From Halisarca cf. caerulea (taxonomy: Eukaryota; Porifera; Demospongiae; Chondrillida; Halisarcidae), in contig CAUJGJ010000040.1 of the NCBI GenBank assembly GCA_963170055.1, positions 2,467,801 to 2,531,800 on the forward strand: a DNA stretch of 64,000 nucleotides, in the 5' to 3' direction. The notes below the pieces were generated by a model, which made no database searches, was not told the origin of the DNA, and was given only the letters and a program-made list of their open reading frames with translations. This document shows, in pieces, positions 25,435-42,980 of this stretch. A program made the position numbers and the translations under genes. Every line of letters begins with the position of its first letter. Position 1 is the first letter of the stretch.

Positions 25435-28400
25435 TCAATTGTTGGACAAGTCACAGGTCTGTGTATGACTAACAGCACCTATAGTGCTATTCTATCAAAG
25501 GTTCTAGATATTGAGTTCACACAACCCTGGTTCAACATGCATGACCTACAAGACAAAGTTGAAGTGCATCATATCATTGTAGAGTACCCCATAATATATA
25601 GGAATGACGTGGAAAAAAAATGGCAGAAGCGTGTGTGTGTGTTCTGTGCTTATGTAATAATGCTATATTAACTGTTAACATGATTGCGTGGGATAGGATG
25701 TATGTCATCGCACAGATGTATGTAAATACGTAGGGCATGCTTACCTTTGCACTTGGTTACTGATAATGCAGTATCCATGTATCCATGGCCAGTATCCATG
25801 GCCTCCATTATATCTTCAGAGAAACTGATCATATTTGGGGCACTGCCTGCCTTCTCTGCTTCACGTCTTAGGAAGTTGCAAAATTGTTCTAAACTACTTC
25901 CATCGTGATTTTTGTGGAAATAATCAATCATGTGATTTGCAGCATCAGTCTGTTCTCCATTGGTAAGCAATGCCAGCATACGATCTTTGCATTCATCACT
26001 AATGAGACGTTTATCATCGTGGAGAATAATAATGCGATTGTATGTCAGCATGTTCTTTACCCCTTCAGTAAATTTCTCTCGTGTCATAATCCGGATAACA
26101 CTGTCAACATTGACATTACTGTAGCGGCTTTTCTTGTGTTTCTGTCTGTCTGAATCATGATTAGGTGGCCGTTTCATTTGGGAATCTTTGCAGAAAGCAG
26201 GAAGGGAAAATAAAAACACAAGGAATGCGTGTATATAAATACCTTAGTTTCTTCAATGATAGCTTTAATATGCAATATACTTTGTGAAAGTCTTACAGAT
26301 ATTGATAATAAAACAAGCCAAACACACTGTTAATTGATGAAGGAAGAGGTAGTACTACACACAAACATGTCATACAAATTGCAACATTTCAGAGGGATCA
26401 GTGCATGGGAACATATACAGTAGACATACCAGTGGTGGGAGGCCTAGGAGGAATGACAGATTCAGCTTGAGTACCACCTGCAAAGGCCAGATATATGTAG
26501 AGGTAATCGATGAGATATGCTTAAACTACAATAACATTATACACTTCTGAACTGATGCATGCACTGTAACATCAAAGGACTTTGAACTATTACCTGAAGC
26601 AACTTATTTCTTTATACAGTGAAGTAAGAGAAAGAGCCAAATTGTGAAAATTCTAAGAGTGAATCCTTGATGAAAGTAATCATTAAAGAGAACTAACCAT
26701 TATGCTGAAGACTGTCACTGGTCACTTGGCACATGTCATGTCATGTGTGCAATATCTGCTGTACATGACTATTAATGGATGCAATGTGCAAATTTCTACA
26801 TCCTGTAACACAATCTATCACACAGAACTAGCTACAACATGTCTGAGTGATGTAAGAATTCGCACACACACAGGGCATTTATTTCAACCCACAGCTGCTT
26901 GGGATTTGGGGCGTGCACGTACCATATTTATAAACAACGTCACCCCTAACAGCAAACAACGTCACCACAAATTGTAAACTACGTCACACAAATGAGAACG
27001 TCACCGAAAGTGCCCCATGTAAGCAGATACCAATGTTAGTGATGTCACAGCCCCGCATCACGATACGTCATCAAAATGGCCGTTTTTCAATAGGCAAAGA
27101 GAAATCAGCTTTTCCGGAGGAGAAAATGCCCTACAACTTTCCTGTTTGTTTCACTTTTTGATTTAATTTAGTCTTGGCTATAGGATTTTGCTTGTAGAAT
27201 AATGCTATAATAAGGTAAGCGAAAGTAATTACCTTATTTGTTTCCATTTTTGCCTATTTTGGGGTACCAAAAAGTGCTTTTTTCCAAATAAAAGGTTTTA
27301 ACAAGGCTATAATAGTAAACTACAAGCAAATTCATATAGTTCAGATATTTTGCCAGCGACTGAAGTAAATTTTGTGAAGCTACAGGGTCATCTTCTCCTC
27401 TGGAAATGGCAATTTCTGTCTTTTACCGAAAGTTTATGGCTCCTTTGTTGCCTCAAACTTCTCTGTTTCGTACTGTTTCTTCTTCGGGTGTTCCTACAAA
27501 TAACATTTGTTTAATTTTATAAAGTGTAACGTATACGTTTATCCGTATTGAAGGCATAATATGCTAAGAAATTTGGCCAAGTTTTGCGACGGCCATTTTA
27601 CCGTTATATCCGAGGGCTGAAATAAATACCCTGTGCACCCCACAGTACATCTAAACTCTGCCTAGTCCATTGCCTGTTAAACCCAAAGTATGTCCCATCA
27701 TTATAGCACAACATGTAATAAAGTATTTATCTATACAGTAAAACTGACAATTACAGTACTTTGCGCACAAAGACACATTTGGGTGAATTTGAAACTGCTT
27801 GTACCTGCAATTTATAACATTCTATTAGAACATTTTTCATGTATACATGCACAAATACCCAATAGGAATAGGCCACATACAGTCGTGTATGGAAAAGAGG
27901 ATATACTGAGCCGGTGAATTGCTGAGCTTGGTTCACAATACATCGCAAGGTGTCGCAAGGCTTGTGATGTGATAAATTGTTGCTACAAAATATGTGTTTT
28001 GATACAAAGATGTTTAACCATTCTATGGATGCGCTGAAACATGGGAATTTATGGTAAAATCCTAAGCGACACCACAGAGAATATAGAACTAAATTCTATT
28101 CCTTGCGACAAGTCGAAATCTCTTGCATGTTGATTGCGACACCACCTCGTGATGTATAGTGAAGCAAGCTTGAGAGAAAATGGAAAAGAAATGACAGCTC
28201 TTGGGTATTGGGTCAAACAAAGTAAAAAAGATAAAATAATGTCCAGTTGGCATACATTTTGAAAATGACTATTATAAGGGTTTAACATCAGAAGTAAGAG
28301 AATGTGAATGGCATGCTGAGTGGTACCTGCTTTGCTGTGGTGGTGACTTCCAGGGCTCATAGATGAATTTGTAACTGAACCAATATTGTAATGAACACCG

Positions 28401-42980: not shown

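Follow-up and report, generated by a model that had tools for sequence, protein, structure and literature searches.

Does a sponge genome encode a single protein in which the single-stranded DNA-binding folds of RPA1 are coupled to a GTPase and a death-fold domain, or are the exons in question divided among separate genes? The question is raised by a 64,000-nt stretch of the Halisarca cf. caerulea genome (contig CAUJGJ010000040.1, positions 2,467,801-2,531,800, forward strand; hereafter the window), in which a first-pass annotation had joined twelve minus-strand exons into one protein of 1226 residues and proposed it as a nucleic-acid sensor. Two parts of this protein stand out: a pair of OB folds corresponding to domains A and B of RPA1, and a long exon whose predicted fold is that of a Roc-COR GTPase. 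We judge the chance that these two parts belong to one gene to be slightly better than even. The more specific reading is that the gene encodes a member of the Roco family in which OB folds A and B from RPA1 have taken the N-terminal place that in relatives belongs to a CARD-like, Death, or kinase module, and that its long isoform carries a CARD; this is plausible, though we would place it somewhat below even.

A twelve-exon gene model

When the 12 minus-strand exons are joined at their GT-AG borders, no internal stop is encountered and the product is 1243 aa long; the in-frame join was thus reproduced, whereas the annotated length of 1226 residues does not hold with our borders. The six exons from 42980 to 36145 (-) contribute 285 residues in frame. 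The features of the model are as follows, with splice-site percentiles here and below referring to the rank among GT (donor) or AG (acceptor) sites on the minus strand of the window.

42981..43056, minus strand: putative 5' untranslated part of exon 1, with the acceptor tttcatcag/ATCT (98.9th percentile of AG sites) and stops in all three frames
42813..42980, minus strand: RPA exon 1, with the start codon and the first half of OB fold A
41588..41767, minus strand: RPA exon 2, remainder of OB fold A
40953..41040, minus strand: RPA exon 3, linker between A and B
37869..38072, minus strand: RPA exon 4, OB fold B, keeping the Trp of LWNKAAQKFDG
36695..36782, minus strand: RPA exon 5, end of OB fold B
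36145..36272, minus strand: exon 6, Ser/Thr linker at the position of zinc domain C in RPA1, ending in phase 1 with G (CAG/gtactg)
31979..34104, minus strand: exon 7, predicted Roc GTPase (GPPAVGKS, DSGGQ, GTFKD) and COR; a CxC, His, Cys cluster close to its end is invariant
31065..31208, minus strand: exon 8, LTLQHSGDLKFYKLCC..QVVL and stop, its join to exon 7 backed by paralog proteins
28327..28467, minus strand: exon 9, Ser/Gly/His-rich, phase 1-1, containing VHYNIGSV (RHIM not supported)
26430..26477, minus strand: exon 10, Pro-containing linker, phase 1-1
25745..26185, minus strand: exon 11, CARD-type six-helix domain by predicted fold, phase 1-1
25435..25478, minus strand: proposed last exon with stop, with a weak acceptor (58th percentile) and an uncertain end

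Because 42981..43056 contains stops in every frame, the ATG at 42980 is the most likely start of translation. The donor GTACGT closes exon 2 at 41588; a second donor four bases on, at 41584 (GTAAGT), was rejected, since its use breaks the frame. Exon 8 may either end the protein, at 1041 aa, or be spliced onward at 31133 (ATG/gtatgt). An Rfam scan gave no match at the gathering score, and the direct repeats within 25000-43100 are TG/CA runs.

RPA-type OB folds A and B

The annotated RPA1-like domains A and B were borne out. In a phmmer search of the PDB, residues 9-245 matched domains A/B of human RPA70 at E 1e-38 (1jmc) and 1.2e-38 (1fgu), and among solved structures the OB pair is nearest to RPA1 itself. 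Pfam identified REPA_OB_2 (E 1e-12) and tRNA_anti-codon (OB) (E 1.2e-7), and the two folds are 34-39% identical to their database matches. OB folds A and B are common to this gene and RPA1 (RPA70), while the N-terminal domain (RPA70N) and zinc domain C of RPA1 were not found in the window, where tblastn with two insect RPA1 proteins matched only A and B. In the place of domain C, exon 6 supplies a 42-residue Ser/Thr-rich linker, as had been proposed.

A Roc-COR exon and its relatives

The open frame of exon 7 is intact and encodes 708 aa. It had been described as a GTPase region, but it comprises more than a GTPase: by its predicted fold it is a Roco (Roc-COR) protein, with Roc motifs G1, G3, and G4 and with COR-A and COR-B directly after Roc. 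The predicted model aligns with LRRK2 (residues 1-702) and with the Roc-COR of CtRoco (1-700). There were 145 homologous protein matches to this exon, and the domain content is known for the best 120 of the 145. In 20 aligned members, G26, G31, and K32, D183, G185, G186, and Q187, and G277, T278, K280, and D281 are invariant. Pfam recognizes Roc in 16 of these 20 at E<=0.1 (the window exon itself reaches no better than E 0.14), together with weak matches to COR-A in five and COR-B in one. A profile search of PDB sequences returned MbRoco at E 0.41 only, and since PDB sequence searches with both the Roc-COR and the CARD gave no strong match, both assignments rest on predicted folds. NCBIfam yielded no useful match, and scans of genome and viral contigs with the Roc-COR alignment gave 27 and 37 pattern stretches, respectively, with no relative confirmed. 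The exons of the gene contain no kinase or Death match (Pfam, E<=1), which leaves the gene outside the DAPK group. We also observed that a CxC, His, Cys cluster at Roc-COR residues 657-679 (window ~32140-32060, minus strand) is invariant in the 20 aligned relatives; it is possibly a metal site special to this Roc-COR family.

Six JGI proteins (P0002-P0007) share 65-82% identity with the window exon. One of them, P0002, has 149 residues ahead of its Roc-COR and enters it at the exact residue that opens the window exon (codon 34105-34103). Because four of the five other paralogs share these 149 residues exactly (P0003 differs), the six are probably assembly variants of a few genes. A portion of this N-terminal stretch of P0002 aligns with the window CARD profile (hhalign probability 85.7, E 5.5e-6, 71 columns). 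At its other end, P0002 reads unbroken into LTLQLHSGDLKFYKLCC..QVVL, a stretch that the window encodes in an exon of its own at 31208, past a 770-base intron; P0002 therefore stems from spliced RNA or from an intronless copy, and is evidence for the acceptor at 34104 as well as for the join from 31979 to 31208. In P0120, a Death match in two stretches, best at residues 150-220, precedes the Roc-COR. The Roc-COR relatives thus differ in their N-terminus, which is CARD-like, Death, or kinase. Since these modules already occur in the family, the GTPase-plus-death-fold half of the proposed protein is already known. P0017 combines a kinase and the same Roc-COR exon in one open frame, a DAPK-like combination with the kinase first.

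Several described proteins resemble parts of this arrangement. DAPK1 is a human Roco protein that regulates cell death (PMC6337361), and Trichoplax has Roco proteins with CARD and death domains (PMC4104024, PMC11378527); both share with our model the Roc-COR core, its G motifs, and a death-fold module on one chain. Unlike in DAPK1, a kinase was not found here, and unlike in either, an RPA A/B pair is placed N-terminally, none being described for those proteins in the available text of the same papers. AP-GTPases with COR are found in bacterial conflict systems and are homologous to animal DAP kinase (PMC8195603). Brown-algal LRR-Roco genes, which are proposed immune receptors, likewise carry a Roc-COR switch behind exon-shuffled sensor modules, the sensor there consisting of LRR repeats, unlike in this gene (PMC11378527). 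The SAMD9 family is similar in combining an NTPase switch with an OB fold and, in relatives from some animals, DEATH-superfamily domains; it differs in its STAND-like NTPase, its AlbA, Sir2-like, and TPR parts, and its single OB fold at the C-terminal end (PMC5445408).

Does the gene extend to the CARD tail?

By its predicted fold, exon 11 is a six-helix death fold of the CARD type. The CARD-like domain of the first-pass annotation is therefore upheld by structure prediction and not by sequence, as Pfam gave no CARD family match for this exon and a profile of four CARD-like copies found no CARD chain among its 7 PDB matches at E<=10. The RHIM-like motif annotated in exon 9 (VHYNIGSV) was rejected, because there was no Pfam match at E<=1 and a loose RHIM pattern occurs at nine places on the minus strand, exon 9 included. 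A second copy of the tail CARD is present in the window:

52661..53053, minus strand: second tail-CARD copy (59% identity), closely followed by a stop codon

This stop implies that the CARD ends the protein there, and the rest of that gene may lie beyond the window. Pro-rich stretches (MMFPPPPTT) near 53.7 kb precede this copy.

A strong competitor to the long form, which we consider only a little short of even, is that the CARD exons at the C-terminal end (28467-25435) are part of a different transcript, such as that of a downstream CARD-caspase gene, and that the Roc-COR protein ends at 31065. Two observations weigh in this direction and against the long form: all six JGI paralogs (P0002-P0007) stop at the homologous QVVL, before the CARD tail, although they are mostly shared sequence and thus not independent, and each of exons 9 to 11 has symmetric 1-1 phases. 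Further downstream, the same strand carries a CARD-like exon (9631) and a caspase exon (6410). In favor of the long form, splicing out of exon 8 at 31133 would use a strong donor (98.4th percentile) whose phase fits exon 9, the second copy at 53053-52661 sets a precedent for a protein that ends with this CARD, and of the 12 exon candidates listed within 31067-28430, the single one with an initial ATG (29084-28981) does not match the phase of exon 9. The join from 31133 to 28467 is a second weak junction of the model, one that had not been flagged previously.

Is the RPA part joined to Roc-COR?

The junction from 36145 to 34104, across a gap of 2.04 kb, had been named the weakest link of the model. 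Its phases and splice sites do agree, while the join itself is unproven: the phase-1 donor of exon 6 lies at the 94.8th percentile and the acceptor of exon 7 at the 97.9th, and the RPA linker exon is the nearest recognized exon upstream of Roc-COR and has the right phase. An upstream phase-1 exon is needed, since the paralogs enter Roc-COR at the same residue after a CARD-like module. A translation start inside the Roc-COR exon itself is improbable, because the stretch ahead of its first Met is part of the family consensus (20 aligned members) and the reading frame opens just 40 bases ahead of the acceptor.

A number of results weigh against a single gene. Frame agreement at one intron has a one in three probability by chance. 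No transcript or protein combining RPA and Roc-COR was found in searches for homologous proteins: RPA Pfam domains occur in none of the 120 Roc-COR matches listed with domain content, and two homology searches with the RPA part gave 4 and 5 proteins, which are RPA1-type plus P0124 and of which none is fused. It should be noted that most of the Roc-COR matches look like single-exon open reading frames and therefore could hardly reveal an RPA fusion, and that P0124, with 345 aa and two OB domains only, may be a fragment that is RPA1-like in its N-terminal part. A candidate exon in the gap (34651-34590, 20 residues) has a codon bias of 8.7 bits and is out of phase with Roc-COR; since it scores above every RPA exon (-0.7 to 7.2), a hidden exon would be compatible with codon bias. 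Lastly, a CARD-like exon at 48388-48007, with an ATG start and a possible phase-1 donor, could feed Roc-COR in an alternative manner, and this second candidate lowers the odds of one gene.

Some of these results would be accommodated by two adjacent genes, one for a small stand-alone RPA A/B protein and the other for Roc-COR, the latter with a first exon that is short, little conserved, or located elsewhere; we give this arrangement substantial but clearly minority credence. Reading through from exon 6 meets a stop after ten codons, and the stand-alone protein would be 295 aa (..SGTENACWKCR). Besides the lack of a fused homolog, the two-domain P0124, and the codon bias, two features of the gap agree with separate genes, namely AATAAA signals on its minus strand at 35498 and 34293 and three nested ATG leaders that share one phase-1 donor at 35673. 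However, the signal at 35498 lies within an interspersed repeat, the 35673 donor and most of the leader lie inside a repeat that recurs at 37333-37450, repeats with matches at other places in the window make up 39% of the gap, and shuffled sequence would be expected to contain 1.66 leaders, as against the three observed here with their one donor. A leader at 35736-35673 for Roc-COR was judged unlikely, being mostly repeat. The possible fragment status of P0124 and the fitting phase of the nearby RPA linker exon also speak for the single gene.

The exon at 48 kb offers another alternative:

48007..48388, minus strand: third CARD-like exon, with an ATG start and a possible phase-1 donor (CAA/gtgtgt) in a TG repeat; rival N-terminus for Roc-COR

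That this exon feeds Roc-COR, with the RPA exons forming either a nested gene or another 5' end of the same gene, is improbable: it has its own start and a possible donor at 48006 and is the best window match to the CARD-like N-terminus that precedes Roc-COR in P0002, but that match is weak (40% over 37 residues, E 0.003), the P0002 linker was not found in the window, the donor sits inside the TG repeat, six intact exons over 13.9 kb would be skipped, and use of the exon as an alternative 5' end would be compatible with the RPA form. Pfam gives this copy CARD_2 at E 0.047, below the cut-off. Splicing of the 48-kb exon to RPA exon 1 was judged unlikely, given an in-frame stop 24 bases before the ATG of exon 1 and no frame that stays open as far as the strong acceptor at 43056. 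Upstream of the 48-kb exon, to 50248 (-), there is a 573-codon Gly/Ser-rich open frame with no Pfam match.

What might a fused protein do?

If the RPA and Roc-COR parts form one protein, the RPA-type OB pair would, by homology, bind single-stranded nucleic acid. Binding could then release or dimerize the Roc-COR switch, shifting its dimer or nucleotide state as in Roco proteins generally, and the CARD of the long isoform, added by the spliced 3' exons, could be exposed or clustered to recruit CARD partners, such as the nearby caspase, as its fold and neighborhood would allow. Without the CARD, a short isoform that ends at 31065 could be a regulator. The protein would then be an exon-shuffled single-stranded DNA alarm (RPA1 OB A/B to Roc-COR to CARD), independently inventing the AIM2 logic of an OB pair plus death fold with a GTPase in between, an idea that we regard as tentative and rather unlikely in its full form.

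PYHIN receptors possess Pyrin rather than CARD and are not known to have a GTPase switch. In the exons of our model, neither HIN nor Pyrin was matched (Pfam, E<=1), and the OB domains are of the RPA type instead. The likeness to AIM2-like receptors (PYHIN) lies in tandem nucleic-acid OB folds combined with a death-fold signaling domain; their HIN OB pair differs in being reported on double-stranded DNA and in not being RPA-type (PMC3458909).

The proposal of a nucleic-acid sensor with GTPase and CARD thus survives in part. RPA A/B, a GTPase switch, and a CARD-type fold occur in the claimed order, with a caspase exon in the window, and one gene is possible; the Roco/death-fold half is known, and the RHIM is unsupported.

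The same fusion could instead serve genome upkeep, with a Roco/CARD protein that reads single-stranded DNA at damage and triggers apoptosis, making it a checkpoint and not a pathogen sensor. We think this unlikely. The closeness of the OB pair to RPA1 would suit it, as would the cell-death role of DAPK1 (PMC6337361), while the repeated CARD exons, the caspase exon, and the large, diverse Roc-COR family look more like a defense repertoire, although they are compatible with both.

Domain A was compared with human RPA70 at nine positions, which we take to be DNA contacts. Four of them are unchanged (R216, R234, F238, and E277), Tyr stands in for F269 and W212, and the Trp of domain B is retained. 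Nucleic-acid sensing may be supposed from the OB folds, with the presumed contact residues kept in part. Weighing against it, R210, K220, and K263 have become Y, Q, and M, so that basic side chains are lost at three of the nine positions. Such losses would fit an RPA A/B pair that has given up nucleic-acid binding and serves the Roco scaffold as a decoy or as a docking module for proteins, an alternative that we also think unlikely, given the retained residues.

Literature searches (titles and abstract openings) gave no RPA-Roco or RPA-CARD protein among the matches listed, and for this reason we call the arrangement undescribed. To our knowledge, no other Roco protein has a nucleic-acid-binding module. 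Should a single gene be proven, its sensor module would be a novelty among Roco proteins. A transcript with both parts would make this the first such Roco protein, provide a directly testable ligand for the Roc-COR switch in a family that includes LRRK2, and define a candidate nucleic-acid sensor outside the cGAS, RLR, TLR, and AIM2 families.

Genomic neighborhood

Two further features are located downstream of the gene model:

5451..6410, minus strand: caspase catalytic exon (Peptidase_C14, E 1.6e-59)
9290..9631, minus strand: fourth CARD-like exon, upstream of the caspase exon

Together, these two probably form a CARD-caspase gene. With the caspase exon and three further CARD-like exons (9631-9290, 48388-48007, and 53053-52661) on the minus strand of the window, the neighborhood looks like a cluster of cell-death genes. 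On the plus strand, open frames at 12452-13992 resemble a membrane protein and have no Pfam match above the cut-off, and a GIY-YIG-like fragment at 23805-24275 (Pfam E 0.0016, below the cut-off) is perhaps a piece of a retroelement.
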